Position numbers and translations under genes: made by a program
Shown: positions 2,121 through 58,661 of the stretch, piece after piece
Layout: each line of letters starts with the position of its first letter
Numbering within the stretch: position 1 is the stretch's first letter
From: Nitrosospira multiformis
GTDB lineage: Bacteria; Pseudomonadota; Gammaproteobacteria; Burkholderiales; Nitrosomonadaceae
DNA length: 64,000 nt
Direction of reading: 5' to 3'
NCBI RefSeq assembly: GCF_900103165.1
Contig: NZ_FNKY01000001.1
Span: 1,240,001 to 1,304,000 of the forward strand
Notes under the pieces: generated by a model
Told to the model about the DNA's origin: nothing
The model's database searches: none
The model's input: only the letters and a program-made list of their open reading frames with translations

Positions 2121-2367
2121 ATAATCCTGAATCCGGCAGTTGGACGGGGCGGAGTGTGCGGTTTTTGGGGTGCAGGGCAAGGCGCAACGACGCGGAATGG
2201 TCATTCCATTCCAAGGAGTTGCAACACTGCCATGCGCCGTAAAAACCGTGCAATCTGCCCTGTAGCGAACTCACCCAGAAGGTGAGCGTAAAATAATACG
2301 AAATATTGTTATTAATCACAACACTGATCTATTAAATGAGCGGTCAACTGCCGGATTCAGGATAATC
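2121..2367. repeat. 247-bp palindromic copy of the dispersed repeat, two opposed arms
   Basis: The left end (2123-2144) is the reverse complement of the core CAACTGCCGGATTCAGGAT; the right end (2345-2366) is the same core in direct orientation. Inside, 2157-2202 (TGCGGTTTTTGGGGTGCAGG and onward) pairs imperfectly with 2203-2250 (running to CGTAAAAACCGTG), folding around GGAATGGTCATTCC. The inner left arm matches the single-arm copy at 24763-24834 along about 70 bp. No ORF is convincing inside. 2027-2120 and 2368-2514 show nothing else I can name. It lies in the long gap between the divergent yqjD-like operon and rpsB. Confidence 0.75.
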
Positions 2368-13344: not shown

Positions 13345-13405
13345 ACGTTGCGTCTTGTCCCGACAACCGAATACCCCCACCCCGTCCAACTACCGGATTT
13401 AAGAT
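13345..13405 (+). repeat. Divergent copy of the dispersed repeat abutting fabZ
   Basis: GTTGCGTCTTGTCCCGACAA and onward to CCCGTCCAACTACCGGATTT aligns, with several differences, to the single-arm copy at 24763-24834. Its terminal GGATTTAAGATT runs straight into the fabZ ATG at 13407. It fills the skp-fabZ gap, where lpxD sits in many relatives. Confidence 0.6.
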
Positions 13406-13406
13406 T

Positions 13407-13847
13407 ATGAATATCCATGAAATTCTGCAATACCTGCCTCATCGCTATCCGTTTCTTCTGGTGGATCGCGTTCTCTCCTGTGAGCCAGGGAAGAACATAG
13501 TTGCACTCAAGAACGTGACGATTAACGAGCCCTTCTTTGGCGGTCATTTTCCCCACCATCCGGTTATGCCAGGCGTGCTGATTATCGAAGCGCTGGCGCA
13601 GGCTGCGGCGATCCTGACGCTCAAGACGATGAATGTGAAAGTCGATGAAAATTCGATATATTATTTTGTCGGCATAGACAGGGCCCGTTTCAAGCAACCG
13701 GTCCAGGCGGGTGACCAATTGATACTCAAGGCGACGATAGAGCGGCAGCGAATCGGTATCTGGAAGTATTCCGCCCAGGCGGAAGTGGATGGCCGTATTG
13801 TTACCGAGGCTGAGTTGATGTGCACGGTGCGAAGCAAGGAGCCGTAG
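13407..13847 (+). CDS. fabZ: 3-hydroxyacyl-ACP dehydratase FabZ
   Basis: 146 residues from [20 protein letters not shown]. The hot-dog fold active site [20 protein letters not shown] contains the catalytic His and Glu. It dehydrates beta-hydroxyacyl-ACP in fatty-acid elongation. The start abuts the dispersed repeat and has no clear Shine-Dalgarno sequence other than the weak AAGA within the repeat end. In E. coli the flanking genes are lpxD and lpxA; both are missing here. Confidence 0.97.
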
Positions 13848-22005: not shown

Positions 22006-22045
22006 TATTAATGAATAAGCGATCAACTACCGGATTCCGAATAAT
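22006..22045 (+). repeat. Dispersed repeat copy abutting trmJ
   Basis: ATTAATGAATAAGCGATCAA followed by CTACCGGATTCCGAATAAT matches the right end of the 2121-2367 element (2331-2366), including the AATGAGCGGT-like lead-in. It ends directly at the trmJ ATG (22046). Confidence 0.65.
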
Positions 22046-22801
22046 ATGAATCCCCTCTACCTGCTTGATAAAGTCCGTGTCGTGCTAAGCCATCCCAGTC
22101 ATCCGGGCAATATCGGCGCAACGGCGCGGGCGATGAAAACAATGGGACTGAGTTCGCTCTACCTGGTGAATCCTAGAACTTTTCCCGACAAAGACGCGGA
22201 AGCGCGCGCCGCGGGTGCATGGGATATATTGAACGATGCCAAGGTTTGCGCGAATCTTGACGAGGCTCTGAGCGGCACGGTTCTGGCGGCGGCAATTACC
22301 GCTCGCCCACGCGATCTTTCGCATGAGGTTTTTGATGCGCGCCGGGGAGCGCACGAATTGCTCGATCATGCGTGCCAGCATCCCGTTGCGCTGGTTTTTG
22401 GCACGGAAATGTCCGGTCTTACCACGATGGAAGTGAGCAAGTGCCAGATTGTTGTGCACATTCCCGCCAATTCGGAGTACTCCTCCCTCAATCTTGCCAG
22501 TGCCGTTCAGATAATGGCCTATGAATTGCGCATGGCGTTGCCTGAATTAAGGTCTCTTTCGCCCGTGGCAAACATCGCGGCGGATTTCAACGATATGGAA
22601 TTGCTTTACCGTCATCTGGAGCGGGTGGCGATTAGCAGCGGTTTTCTGGATCCCCGGGAACCGAAACGATTCATGCAACGGATGCGTCGGCTATTCGCCC
22701 GTGCGCGATTGGAAAAGGAAGAAGTCAATCTATTGCGTGGGATGCTGAGCGCTCTCGAAAAGGGGATCCAGTCGCCGCAACAAACCCAAAACCTTGAGTG
22801 A
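22046..22801 (+). CDS. trmJ: tRNA (cytidine/uridine-32-2'-O)-methyltransferase TrmJ
   Basis: 251 residues. SHPGNIGATARAMKTMG, ALVFGTEMSGLT and IPANSEYSSLNLASAVQI are the three SPOUT motifs of the TrmJ branch; a C-terminal extension (about 165-250) fits the family. It methylates the ribose of residue 32 in several tRNAs using SAM. The start is set by the family N-terminus and the repeat end; no clear Shine-Dalgarno sequence is present. It is followed by iscR, as in E. coli. Confidence 0.93.
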   Translation: MNPLYLLDKVRVVLSHPSHPGNIGATARAMKTMGLSSLYLVNPRTFPDKDAEARAAGAWDILNDAKVCANLDEALSGTVLAAAITARPRDLSHEVFDARRGAHELLDHACQHPVALVFGTEMSGLTTMEVSKCQIVVHIPANSEYSSLNLASAVQIMAYELRMALPELRSLSPVANIAADFNDMELLYRHLERVAISSGFLDPREPKRFMQRMRRLFARARLEKEEVNLLRGMLSALEKGIQSPQQTQNLE

Positions 22802-24762: not shown

Positions 24763-24834
24763 CTTTCCGGCGTTGCGCCTTGCCCTGCACCTCAAAAGCC
24801 GCGCACTTCACCCTGTCCAACTACCGGATTTAGG
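24763..24834 (+). repeat. Single-arm copy of the dispersed repeat
   Basis: From CTTTCCGGCGTTGCGCCTTG to CCAACTACCGGATTTAGG. Its reverse complement aligns over about 70 bp to 2125-2195, with the same block order (core, CACCCTGTC, GCGGCTTTTGAGGTGCAGGG, AAGGCGCAACG). It starts right after the iscS stop. 24835-25095 has no other recognisable gene. Confidence 0.7.
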
Positions 24835-27088: not shown

Positions 27089-27420
27089 CGGAGACCCCGT
27101 ACCTCAAAAACCGCACACTGCGCCTAGGGCCTGTTAACACTTATTTCGCACCCGCGTTGCTACACAAAAAATGCGGAGGCAAGGCGCGAAGCGCAGGCCA
27201 TAGTGGGCCTATGGCCAAGCTTCGCAACACGGCATCCGCGTTTTTTGTGTAACAACCCGAAGGGACGGGACGGATTTCATCCAGCCCTTCGTTACTCGCC
27301 GCTTACGGAGGCCCGCTCCGCCGCGCGGCTCATGCCTCGTGCTGGATGAAATCCGTCGCCGTCGCGGGTGTGAAATAAGTGTTAACAGGCCCTAGTCTAA
27401 CTGCCGGACTCAGGATTATT
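27089..27420 (+). repeat. Dispersed repeat copy split by a MITE
   Basis: Left part 27092-27126 (GACCCCGTACCTCAAAAACC, GCACACTGCGCCTA) and right part 27395-27417 (GTCTAACTGCCGGACTCAGG) join, once the insert and one TA are removed, into a continuous copy that aligns without a gap to 24785-24828. Confidence 0.75.
27127..27392. mobile_element. 266-bp MITE-like element, IS630-type target signature
   Basis: The ends GGGCCTGTTAACACTTATTT (27127 on) and its reverse complement (ending 27392) form terminal inverted repeats of about 30 bp with one mismatch. The element is flanked by TA on both sides, and the reconstructed empty site reads CTAG, the target of IS630 insertion with TA duplication. Two internal hairpins lie inside: 27161-27177 with 27235-27251, and GACGGATTTCATCCAGC (27269-27285) with 27341-27357. 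No transposase ORF, so it would need one in trans. Confidence 0.8.
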
Positions 27421-30409: not shown

Positions 30410-32248
30410 TTAACCAAGCGTTGGTATGGCGTCCGGTTTTTGCGTGATGTCGTTTATCCCTTGCAGCCGCGTCTGTTCTTCCTGCTGCTGGAGTTCCCAC
30501 ATCTGCGCATAGGCGCCGCTTGCCGCGAGTAGCTCCCGATGGGTGCCACGCTCGATAATACTACCTTTGCTCATAACCAGGATCTGATCTGCATCAGCAA
30601 TAGTGGACAGCCGGTGAGCAATGGTCAGCGTGGTACGGTTGATGGCAACACGTTTTAATTCCGCCTGGATGGCCTTTTCCGAGTTTGAATCCAGTGCTGA
30701 GGTGGCTTCGTCAAAGATCAGTATCTCAGGTTCTTTCAAAATCGCGCGGGCGATCGCAACACGTTGCTTTTCCCCGCCAGATAGTTTCAATCCACGTTCT
30801 CCCACCATGGTTTCGTACTTATCTGGCAGACTTTCGATAAAATCGTGAATGTGTGCCGATCGGGCAGCTTCGAGTACCTCTTCGCGGCTTGCATCAGGTC
30901 GTCCGTAGGCGATGTTGTAATAAATGCTATCGTTGAACAGGACAGTATCCTGCGGGACGATGCCCACCGCCTTACGCAGGCTTTGCTGTGTCACGTGGCT
31001 GATGTTCTGGCCACTTATCAGAATCCGGCCACTGGTGACATCGTAAAAGCGGAATAGCAGCCGTGCCAGTGTCGACTTGCCTGAGCCGCTGTGTCCGACC
31101 ACGGCTATGTTGCGGCCTGCAGGGATATCGAAACTTACATCAAACAGAATCTGGCGATTAGATTCATAGCTGAAATCCACTCCCTCGAAGCGAACCGCCG
31201 CATCTCCCGGAATGAGACTGGTTGCGCCCGGCTTATCCTTGATTTCCTCACTCTCAGCCAGTAAATTGAACATTTTTTCCATGTCCGCCAGCGAATGTTT
31301 AATTTCACGGTAGACAAATCCGAGAAAATGCAACGGCATGGATAGTTGCAGCATGAATGCATTGATCAGTACCAGGTCGCCCAGTGTCATGCTGCCCTTG
31401 ATCACCCCATCGGCCGCCAGCCACAACAGCAAGGTGACGCCTACCGCGATAATGGCGCTTTGCGCGGAGTTGAGTGCGGCGAGCGAAGTCTGGTTACGCA
31501 CCGCTGCGGCTTCCCATTTCTGCATGTGCTCGTCATAGCGCCGCGCTTCCCAGGATTCATTGCTGAAATATTTGACCGTTTCGTAGTTCAGCAAGCTATC
31601 AATCGCCTGGGTATTGGCTTTTGAATCCATATCGTTCATGGTCCGGCGGAAAATCATACGCCATTCCGTAACAATTAGCGTGAGCGCAATGTAGGCGACA
31701 AGTGTCACAAAGATGATCACTGAGAACCAGATGTCATATCTGGAAAGGAGGATAGCCGCCACCAAACCGATTTCGAGCAATGTCGGCAGGATGTTGAATA
31801 GCATGAAATTAAGCAGAAAGGAAATGCCGCGCGTCCCGCGCTCGATGTCGCGCGATACGCCGCCGGTCTGACGTTCCAGATGAAAGCGCAGTGACAGTGC
31901 ATGCAGGTGGCCAAACACCTTGATGGCTACCCGCCGGATCGCGCGCTGTGTCACCTTGGCGAATATCGCATCGCGCAATTCGCCGAACAGCGTACTGCAC
32001 AGGCGCAGCGCACCGTAGCCCAACAACAGCAGAACCGGCAGGACCAGCAGGGTTTGCGGCTGGTCGAGTGCATCGACAATTTCTTTCAGAACCAGTGGTA
32101 CGGCGACATTGGCGAGCTTGGCCATCAACAGGAGTGCCAGTGCCACCACTACCCGGCCTTTAAATTCCCACAGATAGGGCAGCAAGGCGCGAATGGTTTG
32201 CCAGTCGTTGCGATTAGCCGATGGTTTTTCCAGGCGAGTGGGACGCAT
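30410..32248 (-). CDS. Atm1-type ABC exporter (permease-ATPase fusion)
   Basis: 612 residues: a six-helix transmembrane domain (about 30-325) and a C-terminal ATPase with Walker [21 protein letters not shown], signature LSGGEKQRVAIAR and Walker B ILIFDEATSALDS. The RHL-type membrane domain with FHLERQTGGVSRDIERGTRG is typical of the ABCB7/Atm1/HMT1 family, which exports glutathione-linked sulfur or metal species and supports Fe-S biogenesis or metal tolerance. The ATG directly follows the dispersed repeat, whose AGGATA may act as a crude Shine-Dalgarno sequence. A decayed copy of its 5' end lies at 33307-33424. Confidence 0.9.
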   Translation of the reverse strand: MRPTRLEKPSANRNDWQTIRALLPYLWEFKGRVVVALALLLMAKLANVAVPLVLKEIVDALDQPQTLLVLPVLLLLGYGALRLCSTLFGELRDAIFAKVTQRAIRRVAIKVFGHLHALSLRFHLERQTGGVSRDIERGTRGISFLLNFMLFNILPTLLEIGLVAAILLSRYDIWFSVIIFVTLVAYIALTLIVTEWRMIFRRTMNDMDSKANTQAIDSLLNYETVKYFSNESWEARRYDEHMQKWEAAAVRNQTSLAALNSAQSAIIAVGVTLLLWLAADGVIKGSMTLGDLVLINAFMLQLSMPLHFLGFVYREIKHSLADMEKMFNLLAESEEIKDKPGATSLIPGDAAVRFEGVDFSYESNRQILFDVSFDIPAGRNIAVVGHSGSGKSTLARLLFRFYDVTSGRILISGQNISHVTQQSLRKAVGIVPQDTVLFNDSIYYNIAYGRPDASREEVLEAARSAHIHDFIESLPDKYETMVGERGLKLSGGEKQRVAIARAILKEPEILIFDEATSALDSNSEKAIQAELKRVAINRTTLTIAHRLSTIADADQILVMSKGSIIERGTHRELLAASGAYAQMWELQQQEEQTRLQGINDITQKPDAIPTLG

Positions 32249-32281
32249 TATCCTAAATCCGGTAGCTGGGTGGGTGAAATG
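32249..32281 (-). repeat. Dispersed repeat copy abutting the ABC exporter start
   Basis: On the minus strand, TTTCACCCACCCAGCTACCG and GATTTAGGATA run straight into the ATG at 32248. This is the type-a end, as at 24810-24834. Confidence 0.65.
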
Positions 32282-37732: not shown

Positions 37733-39133
37733 CTAGCTTGGGGTGGGTGACCAACCTCCACCCAGAGCCCTGTAAAGTTGAACGACGGACACCAGATGCA
37801 GACGGTGTGTTGCCGTGAGGGCAAATTCGGCATTGAATAGATTACGCTTGGCAAGAAGTACATCCACATAGCTTGTAATGCCTCCCTTATAGCGAGCGTC
37901 GGCCACACGCAACGCTGAGCGCAGCGCGTCAACCTGCTCCTGCTGCGCTTTGCGCTGATCATTGGCGGTGCGGATAGCCACCAGGGCATCTTCTACCTCC
38001 TTGAATGCCACCAGGATGGTTTGTTCATATTGTGCCAACACCTGCCTTGCCTGGGCTTCCACGGCCCGTTGATCGAACCCCAGGCTTTGCGCATTCAGCA
38101 ATGGGCCGGCCAGCCCGAGTCCGCCCGCCCCAAACTCGCTTCCTGAGAGCAGCAAGTTGGATAAAGCCGGACTGGCTACCCCCAGAAAGCCCGTAATCGT
38201 AAGCTTGGGAAATCGCGCTGCTTTGGCCATCCCGATTCTGGCGGTGGCCGCCGCCAGCGTTTGCTCCGCCTGGAGAATATCGGGACGCCGTTGCAACAAC
38301 TCGGAAGGCAGTCCAGCTGGCACTTCCGGCGGCATCAGTTGTGCGGTCAGCGAGTAGCCTCGCGTAATCGGCACCGGGTTTTTTCCGAGCAATACACTCA
38401 GTTCATTTTCCTTCTGAACCATTTGCCGTTCCAGTTCCGCCACTCTAGCCATCGCGTTGGCCCGCTCCGCCTCGAACTGATCCAGATCAATGCGGGAAAT
38501 CAACCCGCCTTGCAATTGCGCCTGTGAAATGGCAACCGATTCTTCCCACGACGACAGGGCGCGGCGGGCAATACTCATCTGCATATCAAATTGCAAAAGA
38601 TCGAAATAGGATTGTGCCACCGAGCTTACCAACGTCAGCACTATCGCCCGGCGATTCTCCTCGCGCGCCATCAGATCGGCACGGGCAGCCTCATTGGCAC
38701 GGCGGAGCCTGCCCCAGATATCCAGCTCCCAATTCAGGGTCGTCTGTCCGAAATAATTGAAGGGTGTCGGGAAGCCGGGAATAAGGAAGCCGCCGAGGGT
38801 GCCCATCGCAGGTGCATTGGCACTGATGTCCATTTTGGGAAGAAAATCCATGCGCGCTATGCGCAGGCGGGCCTGGAGTTCCTCGACGCTCGCCACCGCC
38901 TGTTTGAGATTCCTATTCTCCAGCAAGGCCTGGTTGATGAGCCGCTGAAGTTCTTCATCCTTAAGAAGCTCCCACCAGGGAAGATTGGCGATGGATTGCC
39001 CTTCCGTTTCCGACATACGAAACTTCTCGGCGGTGTCGATAGGGGGCCGGAAATAGTCGGGTCCCATGGCGCAAGATGCCAGGAGCAAGCTGGAGATTAA
39101 TAGAATACTGACCTTATTATGGTGTTGCATCAT
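37733..39133 (-). CDS. RND efflux outer-membrane lipoprotein (NodT/OprM family), copy 1
   Basis: 466 residues from MMQHHNKVSILLISSLLLAS; the lipobox LLASC gives lipidation at about Cys21. Two OEP repeats follow, with helical barrel signatures such as NLPWWELLKDEELQRLINQA and RRPDILQAEQTLAAATARIG. It forms the outer-membrane channel of a tripartite pump. AGGAAACGGC precedes the ATG; a GTG at 39154 is also in frame. It is third in the operon adaptor-permease-channel. Copy 2 at 43707 is about 90% identical from the lipobox onward. Confidence 0.93.
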   Translation of the reverse strand: MMQHHNKVSILLISSLLLASCAMGPDYFRPPIDTAEKFRMSETEGQSIANLPWWELLKDEELQRLINQALLENRNLKQAVASVEELQARLRIARMDFLPKMDISANAPAMGTLGGFLIPGFPTPFNYFGQTTLNWELDIWGRLRRANEAARADLMAREENRRAIVLTLVSSVAQSYFDLLQFDMQMSIARRALSSWEESVAISQAQLQGGLISRIDLDQFEAERANAMARVAELERQMVQKENELSVLLGKNPVPITRGYSLTAQLMPPEVPAGLPSELLQRRPDILQAEQTLAAATARIGMAKAARFPKLTITGFLGVASPALSNLLLSGSEFGAGGLGLAGPLLNAQSLGFDQRAVEAQARQVLAQYEQTILVAFKEVEDALVAIRTANDQRKAQQEQVDALRSALRVADARYKGGITSYVDVLLAKRNLFNAEFALTATHRLHLVSVVQLYRALGGGWSPTPS

Positions 39134-43706: not shown

Positions 43707-45233
43707 TCATCCCGGCATCCAGCCTCCGCCTAAGGCCTTGTAGAGCTGAACGACGGACACCAGATGCAAACGGTGTGTAGTCGTGAGAGCAAATTCGGCC
43801 TCGAACAGCAAACGCTTGGCAAGGAGCACATCCACATAGCTCGTAATGCCCCCCTTGTAGCGAAGGTCGGCCACACGCAACGCTGAGCGCAGCGCTTTGA
43901 CCTGCTCCTGCTGCGCATTGCGCTGATCATTGGCGGTGCGAATCGCCACCAGGGCGTCTTCCACCTCCTTGAATGCCACCAGGATGGTTTGCTCGTATTC
44001 GGCCAATACCTGCCTCGCCTGGGCTTCAGCTGCCCGCTGGTCGAACCCCAGGCTTTGCGCATTCAGCAATGGGCCGGCCAGCCCGAGTCCGCCCACTCCA
44101 AACTCGCTGCCGGAGAGTAGTAGATTTGACAAGGCCGGGCTCGCTACCCCCAGAAAACCGGTGATCGAGAGCTTGGGAAATCGCGCTGCTTTGGCCATCC
44201 CGATTCTGGCGGTGGCCGCCGCCAGCGTTTGCTCCGCCTGGAGAATATCGGGACGCCGTTGCAGCAGCTCGGAAGGCAGGCCGGACGGCACTTCCGGCGG
44301 CATCAGCTGTTCCGTCAGCGAGTGGCCTCGCGTAATCGGCACCGGGTTCTTTCCGAGCAATACACTCAGTTCATTTTCCTTCTGAACCATCTGCCGCTCT
44401 ACTTGCGCCACTCGGGTAGCGGCGTTGGCCCGCTCCGCTTCGAACTGATCCAGATCGAGGCGGGAAATCACGCCGCCTCGCAGTTGTGCCTGGGAAATGG
44501 CAACCGATTCTTCCCATGACGACAGGGCGCGAAGGGCAATACTCATCTGCATATCAAATTGCAGAAGATCGAAATAGGACTGTGCCACCGAGCTTACCAA
44601 CGTCAGCACTATCGCCCGGCGATTCTCCTCGCGCGCCATCAGGTCGGCGCGGGCGGCCTCATTGGAGCGACGAAGCCTGCCCCAGATATCCACTTCCCAA
44701 TTCAGGGTCGTCTGGCCGAAATAACTGTAGGGTGTTGGAAAACCGGGGCGAAGAAATCCACCGAGCGTGCCAAATGCCGGAGCGTTGGCACTGATGTCCA
44801 TTTTGGGAAGAAAATCCATGCGAGCGATGCTCAGGCGGGCCTGGAGTTCCTCAATGCTTGCCACCGCCTGCTTGAGATCCCTGTTTTCGAGCAAGGCCTG
44901 GTTGATGAGCCGTTGAAGTTCTTCATCCTGAAGAAGCTCCCACCAGGGAAGATTGGCGATGGATTGCCCTTCCGTTTCCGCCATGCGAAACTTCTCGGCG
45001 GTGTCGATAGGAGGCCGGAAATAGTCGGGTCCCATGGCGCAGGATGCTAACAGAAGGCTCGGAAGTAACAACAGTATGCGGATTCGGCGGTAATATCCTG
45101 TCTTCAATGAAAGAGCCACCGCTGTAAATTTTCCGGGTGTAGCGGAAGATGCAGTGGCCGCAACGATCGATTTAACACCGCTGACCAAGGCAGACACCGC
45201 CACCGGATGGGGTAATCTTAAATGTGGCATCAT
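43707..45233 (-). CDS. RND efflux outer-membrane lipoprotein, copy 2
   Basis: 508 residues if begun at the ATG overlapping the permease stop by 4 bases (45233). From the lipobox (LLLASCAMGPDYFRPPIDTA, Cys at about 65) it is nearly the same as copy 1 at protein and DNA level. The 60 residues before the lipobox are unlike copy 1 and too long and polar for a signal peptide; an internal TTG 24 codons before the Cys (LKTGYYRRIRILLLLPSLLL) would give a normal one. The start is therefore uncertain, and the gene looks patched by recombination. Confidence 0.88.
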   Translation of the reverse strand: MMPHLRLPHPVAVSALVSGVKSIVAATASSATPGKFTAVALSLKTGYYRRIRILLLLPSLLLASCAMGPDYFRPPIDTAEKFRMAETEGQSIANLPWWELLQDEELQRLINQALLENRDLKQAVASIEELQARLSIARMDFLPKMDISANAPAFGTLGGFLRPGFPTPYSYFGQTTLNWEVDIWGRLRRSNEAARADLMAREENRRAIVLTLVSSVAQSYFDLLQFDMQMSIALRALSSWEESVAISQAQLRGGVISRLDLDQFEAERANAATRVAQVERQMVQKENELSVLLGKNPVPITRGHSLTEQLMPPEVPSGLPSELLQRRPDILQAEQTLAAATARIGMAKAARFPKLSITGFLGVASPALSNLLLSGSEFGVGGLGLAGPLLNAQSLGFDQRAAEAQARQVLAEYEQTILVAFKEVEDALVAIRTANDQRNAQQEQVKALRSALRVADLRYKGGITSYVDVLLAKRLLFEAEFALTTTHRLHLVSVVQLYKALGGGWMPG

Positions 45234-50349: not shown

Positions 50350-50551
50350 ACGTTGTGTGCTCAAGAGCATACCGTTCCTGATTCCCTAACCACTGAACCT
50401 GCATCGCATGGCGCTTGCTATGGCGGATCGCAAAGTTTTTTGCGGCGTATGCCCACAAATTCCATGCTGTTCGGCGGCCACCGCTGCGCCCGACACGTGC
50501 GAATCCGGATGAACGAAGTGTATTCGGCGGTACCCGTTTTTTCGGTAAAAT

Positions 50552-50604
50552 ATAGTTGACTAAATCGATCAGGTATCTTATAGTTGACTAAATCAGTCAT
50601 GTAT
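50552..50604 (+). promoter_or_regulatory. Tandem type-1 IscR sites and promoter of the suf operon
   Basis: Site A 50552-50576 (ATAGTTGACTAAATCGATC onward) and site B 50580-50604 (ATAGTTGACTAAATCAGTC onward) both fit the type-1 IscR consensus, site B almost perfectly. They are 28 bp apart. Promoter boxes are embedded: TTGACT (50556-50561) with TATAGT (50579-50584), 17-bp spacer; and TTGACT (50584-50589) with GATAAA downstream. Binding would block the -35 elements. Confidence 0.8.
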
Positions 50605-57962: not shown

Positions 57963-58215
57963 TACAAGGCATATCGCCTGCTATCGGTCGGTTATAATTC
58001 GACCCATGTCCCAGAAACTCGTTCCTGGTTTCGGGGTAGTTTGCATGATAATTATTTCCGAAGATCGCTTAATCCATTCGATGATGCCGATCGGCTATAG
58101 TATTATCCTGAAGCCGATAGTTGGTCTCGTCTCATTGGAACCCGCCAGGGGTGAAGGTCAAGTGATGCGAGGAGTCATTGCGGATCATGTCGCTTAATTG
58201 ACAAATGAACCGGGA

Positions 58216-58247
58216 ATGAGCGGTCACTGCTGGATTTAGGTTATCAG
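58216..58247 (+). repeat. Dispersed repeat copy abutting hemJ
   Basis: AATGAGCGGTCACTGCTGGA then TTTAGGTTATCAG matches the right end of the 2121-2367 element (AATGAGCGGTCAACTGCCGG) with small changes, and ends at the hemJ ATG. Confidence 0.6.
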
Positions 58248-58661
58248 ATGCTCTGGATAAAATCGCTACATATTATTTTTATGGTGACCTGGTTTGCCGG
58301 GCTCTTTTATTTGCCTCGCCTGTTCGTCTATCATGCGATGAGCGATGATGCGTCCGGCATTGAGCGTTTCAAGGTGATGGAACGCAAGCTCTATTATGGC
58401 ATCATGACACCAGGTGCCGTATTGACGATTCTTTTTGGCCTGTGGCTTTGGCTGGGTTACGGTATTTCCGGCGGATGGTTGCATGCCAAACTTGCATTGG
58501 TGATCGTACTGATTGGATACCACCTCTACTGCGGCAGATTGCTTGCCGATTTCAAGTATGACCGCAACCGCCATAGTCACGTTTATTACCGCTGGTTCAA
58601 TGAAATTCCGGTGGTGATTCTGATTGTGGTGGTGATACTGGTCGTGGTGAAACCATTTTAA
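58248..58661 (+). CDS. hemJ: Protoporphyrinogen IX oxidase HemJ
   Basis: 137 residues with four membrane helices. IKSLHIIFMVTWFAGLFYLP followed by RLFVYHA is the haem-ligand His region of the HemJ/UPF0093 family; a second conserved segment is GGWLHAKLALVIVLIGYHLY. It oxidises protoporphyrinogen in aerobic haem synthesis; hemE lies 2.7 kb downstream on the same strand. The start directly follows the dispersed repeat; a TAGG 10 bases before the ATG may serve as a weak RBS. Confidence 0.9.
   Translation: MLWIKSLHIIFMVTWFAGLFYLPRLFVYHAMSDDASGIERFKVMERKLYYGIMTPGAVLTILFGLWLWLGYGISGGWLHAKLALVIVLIGYHLYCGRLLADFKYDRNRHSHVYYRWFNEIPVVILIVVVILVVVKPF

Follow-up and report, generated by a model that had tools for sequence, protein, structure and literature searches.

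A short repeat with the core CAACTGCCGGATTCAGGAT is dispersed through the window (the whole 64,000-nt stretch analyzed, C1:1240001-1304000 of the 3.5-Mb genome of Nitrosospira multiformis, hereafter G000), with copies on both strands, partly as outward-facing pairs, and with ends close to the starts of four genes (Table 1). At ≤3 mismatches the core was matched eight times in the window, against 0.01 matches expected by shuffling. Eight of the nine core positions listed in an initial annotation (2123, 2345, 13385, 22023, 24818, 27399, 32253 and 58225) proved to be ends of the repeat, with coordinates corrected here; the ninth, 29104, failed to match the 17-nt core even when ≤4 mismatches were allowed, and one further end on the minus strand (58107-58123) was absent from that list.

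Table 1. Repeat copies, target duplications and adjoining genes in the 64-kb window
Feature	Coordinates	Strand	Remarks
Complete 236-bp MITE copy	2126..2361		Terminal inverted repeats at 2126-2142 (-) and 2345-2361 (+), each with 0 mismatches
Target duplication (5 bp), left copy	2121..2125		ATAAT on +
Target duplication (5 bp), right copy	2362..2366		ATAAT on +
Single L-type repeat end before fabZ	13387..13403	+	AGG mutated to AAG; flank ATTAT at 13404-13408
fabZ	13407..13847	+	Start 3 nt past repeat end; start codon shared with element-free relatives
Single decayed R-type repeat end before trmJ	22024..22040	+	Terminates in CCGA
trmJ-like SpoU methylase	22046..22801	+	Start 5 nt past repeat end; GTG at same place in G004
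Single L-type repeat end	24818..24834	+	Flank TTTAA; coding start not found within 260 nt (uniform start-picking rule)
Repeat end of copy split by nested second element (27124-27395)	27398..27414	+	61 nt to next gene start
ABC exporter	30410..32248	-	Start 3 nt past repeat end; start codon shared with both relatives
Single repeat end before ABC exporter	32252..32268	-	Flank ATAAT at 32247-32251
Decayed 134-bp MITE copy	58107..58240		Ends at 58107-58123 (-, 2 mismatches) and 58224-58240 (+, 3 mismatches); 5-bp flanks now unlike
hemJ (UPF0093)	58248..58661	+	Start 7 nt past repeat end; start codon shared with both relatives

The repeat end near position 2122 had been taken to supply a start codon for the DUF883 gene (1613-2122). 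The ATG at 2122 is indeed in frame, but it is very probably not the start of this gene, because the ATG at 2026, further down, is preceded by a good ribosome-binding site (AAAAAGGAGTTAACC) and the Pfam domains of the long reading start at residues 79 and 141; translation is likely to begin at 2026.

Three other repeats were observed in the window. The inverted-repeat element nested in a MITE copy at 27124-27395 has 33-nt arms that are 97% complementary (GGCCTGTTAACACTTATTTCGCACCCGCG) and is bounded by CTAG; at ≤3 mismatches, the genome contains 67 matches to the arm. A direct repeat of 300 nt with 87% identity (37751-38050 and 43719-44018) lies at the ends of two large minus-strand open reading frames (ORFs), and between ORFs at 50544-50599 two 28-nt units stand in tandem, 82% alike and with TATAGTTGACTAAATC in common.

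Element anatomy, target site and distribution

The repeat is the 17-nt terminal inverted repeat of a MITE family, reading CAACTRCCGGATTYAGG outward, and no leader motif. Elements were surveyed in 468 kb around repeat sites (100 stretches plus the window), a sample in which reverse-strand ends from the middle of G000 are underrepresented; ends with four mismatches, among which there are chance matches, were retained only when paired. This yielded 89 outward pairs of ends ≤450 bp apart, most commonly 236 bp in size, with others of ∼116 and ∼385 bp. When AGG was taken as the end of the element, 5-bp flanks were identical in 37 pairs and flanks of 6 bp or longer in none (summed mismatches ≤5), and over all 89 pairs the 5-bp flanks were identical in 40 and showed one difference in 21. 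The target is WTNAW, mostly ATNAT or TTNAA, and the string AGGATNATG parses as AGG (repeat end), ATNAT (target copy) and G. The family thus combines terminal inverted repeats at both ends, a target site duplication and many dispersed copies, as MITEs do. That an unrelated short motif came to lie beside start codons by chance draws support from nothing but the commonness of start codons; the number of copies in the window and the 5-bp duplications both speak against it and, because the ends are paired with target duplications, chance juxtaposition is refuted, with a probability that is practically nil.

Across the whole G000 genome, 198 ends were found at ≤2 mismatches and none for a reversed control. 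Within the genus, the repeat was present at ≤1 mismatch in 17 of 23 genomes, some with one or two matches, and had no match in the other six. Among the matches listed in public records, the same ends occur in Nitrosospira sp. NpAV, Nl5 and Nsp11 and in Nitrosovibrio, and the same terminal repeat is found in records labeled as Acidobacteria, Verrucomicrobia, Chlamydiae and other Proteobacteria, many of these records being metagenome-assembled genomes (MAGs). At L155 and L326, in Nitrosospira sp. Nsp11 and in G001, a MITE copy lies 3 nt before the start of a gene which, from its protein sequence, we take to be tatC, perhaps as one common insertion. No description of this MITE family was found among the listed titles and abstract openings of open-license papers.

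Candidate transposase and known relatives

None of the elements in the window carries a protein-coding gene, and a profile search of the G000 genome for PF13701 returned no match. Going by the end sequence and the 5-bp duplications, it is likely, though not proven, that the MITE was moved by a transposase of the IS1380 type. ISEcp1, a member of that family, has ends starting with CCT and makes AT-rich duplications. IS1247 of the same family is entered in Table 2 of PMC3281130 as generating 5-bp repeats, with which the 5-bp duplication of the MITE agrees. In other bacteria, related transposase genes or their remnants adjoin this repeat: it follows directly after an IS1380-like ORF remnant on the Methylibium plasmid RPME01 (1 mismatch), a pair of repeats flanks a degraded IS1380-like ORF in a Terrimicrobiaceae MAG, the repeat stands right after a transposase remnant at L358 (2 mismatches), and a more distant end (4 mismatches) lies near intact ORFs at L346 and L347. 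The IS1380 cases with this repeat are one-sided or degraded (L265, L211 and L358), and the L211 fragment matched no Pfam family. A Polaromonas relative of these ORFs matched the IS1380 model NF033539 (E = 2e-32; 112 bits, under the 180-bit cutoff) and scored over the cutoff for both PF01609 (66 bits) and PF13701 (55 bits). Two Polaromonas ORFs gave no tblastn match in the sampled stretches of G000, G001, G004 and G008. Relatives of the Polaromonas transposase were found in 13 of 274 class-level genomes, and no intact element carrying the exact repeat was found among those 274. A search for an autonomous partner in the genus was likewise unsuccessful: PF13701 had matches in 6 of 23 genomes, 3 of them over the cutoff, and 12 of the 13 loci had no repeat end at ≤3 mismatches, the thirteenth (L256) holding an ordinary short copy. 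The MITE and IS1380 insertion sequences differ in that the window elements are non-coding and G000 is without a PF13701 match.

The element is ordinary in kind. Correia elements are short and non-coding, with terminal inverted repeats, a target duplication and many copies. The same features are described for Tn3-derived TIMEs (PMC4133298) and for MITEAba12 (PMC6382973). Unlike all three, the present family has another repeat sequence, duplicates a 5-bp target of the form WTNAW and often abuts exactly on native start codons; this start-codon habit is unusual and mostly follows from the target sequence.

Start codons and the WTNAW target

The initial annotation placed a gene start at the codon next to the repeat in four copies. 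A start does follow the repeat at fabZ, trmJ, the ABC exporter and hemJ, at spacings of 3, 5, 3 and 7 nt, so that adjacency is approximate. Gene starts were called with a home-made codon score rather than taken from annotation, and the names of genes outside the five in the window are those that we take them to bear, by recognition of their protein sequences. In both G004 and G008, two relatives free of the element, fabZ, the exporter and hemJ have an ATG at the same codon; trmJ has GTG in G004, and its N-terminus is unaligned in G008. Of 46 ends near starts (38 in an earlier list), 27 were used for the ortholog comparison; members of large gene families and uncertain reading frames were omitted. 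At least one of the two relatives had the start codon at the same place in 19 of these 27 genes (nudix, rfbA, mshM-like, rpoN, ruvA, rng, fmt, fabZ, trmJ, ABC exporter, hemJ, zip-like, accA, gspJ, gspF, dedD, ABC ATPase, gph and rlmD), two further starts were within one codon (argH and coaE), five disagreed (bamB, thiL, maf, rsmB and purE), and for kdpC the relative DNA compared contained no ortholog. The start codons beside the repeat are thus mostly the genes' own.

For 8 of the 17 genes on paired copies (rfbA, ruvA, maf, purE, zip-like, accA, gspF and coaE), the flank on the far side of the element matched the native upstream region in register, scoring higher than 200 shuffles. The far-side flank of argH reached 28 in one relative, where the best shuffle gave 26, but was out of register; those of the remaining eight genes did not align above shuffles. 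At ruvA the far-side alignment stops exactly at position +5 of the native start, as target duplication requires. In relatives the TGA of the gene upstream of ruvA seems to overlap the ruvA ATGA at this insertion site (L057, G000:C1:611539), and the 5-bp duplication appears to have kept both the stop of that putative upstream reading frame and the start. At fmt (L066, G000:C1:919757; orthologs L271 and L298) the far target copy is ATGAA and the gene-side copy TTGAA; the gene seems to start now with TTG, following an insertion at its ATG.

WTNAW can meet a start codon in two registers, ATGAW, which places the repeat end at distance 0, and WTNATG, which places it at distance 3. Among the ORF-facing ends at the sampled G000 sites, the distance from AGG to the coding start peaked at precisely these values (0 for 12 ends and 3 for 13, 25 of 140 in all), the starts being predicted ones of which a few are false, for example, that of DUF883. 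The expected rate was taken from 296 genes of G004: of the 933 WTNAW sites in their starts and upstream gaps, 133 were at one of these two distances. With the same start-picking rule on both sides, 25 of 107 G000 ends with a WTNAW flank were at these distances (odds ratio, 1.8; P = 0.022), and under a strict definition of the target 17 of 87 (P = 0.18); all P values reported here are exploratory and uncorrected. In G001, 2 of 46 ends were so placed, which differs from the 25 of 107 in G000 (P = 0.005). A stronger enrichment was indicated by a first background of 119 own genes (46 of 145 ends at distance ≤8 versus 26 of 197 strict and 59 of 418 loose target sites). Measured against the 296-gene background, it came to 27 of 107 versus 133 of 933 at distance 0 or 3 (P = 0.0045) and 18 of 88 versus 65 of 477 for the strict target (P = 0.10); strong enrichment was rejected, and G001 did not replicate it.

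Copies were classed as young when the summed mismatches of a pair were ≤1, and single ends were counted as old. Young copies of both genomes were at distance 0 or 3 as often as expected (8/68 versus 133/933; P = 0.72), whereas old G000 copies exceeded the background (19/71; P = 0.009) and none of the 14 old G001 copies was so placed. Within G000, young and old copies did not differ significantly at these distances (P = 0.33); at distance ≤8 there were 6 of 42 young and 30 of 98 old copies (P = 0.057), and G001 showed the opposite trend (7/35 young and 0/18 old; P = 0.08). The original view that chance placement was unlikely thus stands against uniform placement and largely fails once the target preference is allowed for. 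Target preference explains most of the coincidence, and a modest excess is confined to G000; the excess of old copies and the difference between G000 and G001 indicate that target choice alone may not account for the G000 pattern. R-type ends were rarer at starts (R 7, L 17 and S 8) than elsewhere (R 94, L 61 and S 5; 14 and 39 untyped ends dropped), also under a uniform start rule (R 7 to 16 versus 94 to 75; P = 0.027; 13 and 39 untyped ends dropped); the end-type bias was not significant in G001 (P = 0.44) and is a lead at most.

Insertion duplicates the 5-bp WTNAW target, to which start codons often conform (ATGAW, or WTNAT followed by G); at such a site a start codon stays on the gene side through the duplication, with the reading frame intact.

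Translation from starts beside the repeat

The repeat had been read as a domesticated 5' leader whose terminal AGGA could act as a minimal ribosome-binding site and place several genes under common translational control; on this reading, selection would keep the copies at starts. Anatomically, the ends do abut real start codons and form the immediate 5' leader, and translation of genes such as fabZ, accA and fmt has to begin at starts of this kind; common control is unsupported. Over-representation at starts of old G000 copies, and of single ends in that genome (17/40 versus 33/164, P = 0.007; under the uniform rule 13/32 versus 36/171, P = 0.024), would suit such retention, yet the excess is absent from G001 and from young copies, and old and young G000 copies show no significant difference. 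The ribosome-binding site itself was not borne out. The terminal G of AGG was present in a fraction of 0.80 of 46 ends at starts versus 0.93 of 199 others (P = 0.02), in 29 of 36 versus 192 of 208 under the uniform start rule (P = 0.056), and in 7 of 7 versus 92 of 94 in G001; because this G is, if anything, less conserved at starts and AGG is already mutated beside fabZ and trmJ, the repeat end is no maintained ribosome-binding site. At distance 0, moreover, AGG touches the ATG and cannot be a Shine-Dalgarno sequence. RNA leaders and riboswitches also lie just upstream of coding starts, but this repeat is mobile, both kinds of end occur before genes, and a search of the 64 kb for a regulatory leader or riboswitch gave no Rfam match at the gathering score. 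With the starts native and no functional theme seen among the repeat-adjoining genes, a domesticated leader is improbable.

The predicted Shine-Dalgarno pairing of the repeat end is -3.3 to -4.1 kcal/mol. Median predicted pairing was -3.1 in G004 (273 genes, 39% of them at or below -4), so that most genes of this sampled relative are without strong pairing, and -2.25 in the native orthologs (18 genes; P = 0.07 versus background). Since native pairing is weak and the repeat end is no worse, replacement of the upstream region should cost little. Insertions would then be tolerated, even before housekeeping genes. We consider it very likely that the copies are where they are through target choice and tolerance, with no support for common regulation, and equally hold, with high confidence, that the repeat belongs to a non-autonomous MITE whose WTNAW target overlaps start codons, whose insertions are tolerated and which is probably mobilized by an IS1380-type transposase.

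A further effect may arise from folding. The arms of an intact copy could pair, hide the start region and lower translation, and selection would then favor loss or mutation of the far arm, which would relieve the block and leave an open single end. Opening positions -18 to +12 was predicted to cost a median of 13.6 kcal/mol in 23 paired copies at starts, 10.0 in 13 single ends and 9.4 in 80 G004 genes, the paired copies differing from single ends (P = 0.005) and from the background (P = 0.0002) and single ends not differing significantly from the background (P = 0.94); the folding set consists of start copies and G004 genes, and paired copies fold more by construction. Arms mismatched more at starts (3.43 versus 2.35, P = 0.03; by another count 3.19 versus 2.28, P = 0.047), but in predicted arm-pairing energy there was no significant difference (P = 0.13). 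The excess of single ends given above also agrees with arm loss but is limited to G000, and in G001 all seven start copies are paired and none single, with arm mismatches of 0.71 versus 1.21 (P = 0.5). The G000 pattern as modeled fits selection for opening the hairpin, and the weak signal of retention in its old copies may reflect relief of the hairpin rather than common control. On these exploratory tests, a hairpin that dims translation is a tentative suggestion, less probable than not, and its predicted effect on translation would be the most interesting testable remainder.

A broader reading joins these elements. Starts would be a recurrent safe harbor, in which the duplication restores the start, the repeat end provides an initiation region that is portable and independent of Shine-Dalgarno pairing, the hairpin of an intact copy dims the gene until the far arm is lost, and old copies at starts are fossils kept as initiation regions; taken as a whole, this model is rather unlikely.

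What looked like a regulatory code turns out to be a mobile element with a target that overlaps start codons, and a coincidence of this kind is to be judged against the target motif of the element, not against uniform placement. In accA, fabZ, fmt, ruvA, rng, rpoN and other genes, one and the same foreign sequence has taken the place of the upstream region and the gene has been kept; this natural series lends itself to tests of Shine-Dalgarno-independent initiation and of the coexistence of transposons with dense bacterial operons.
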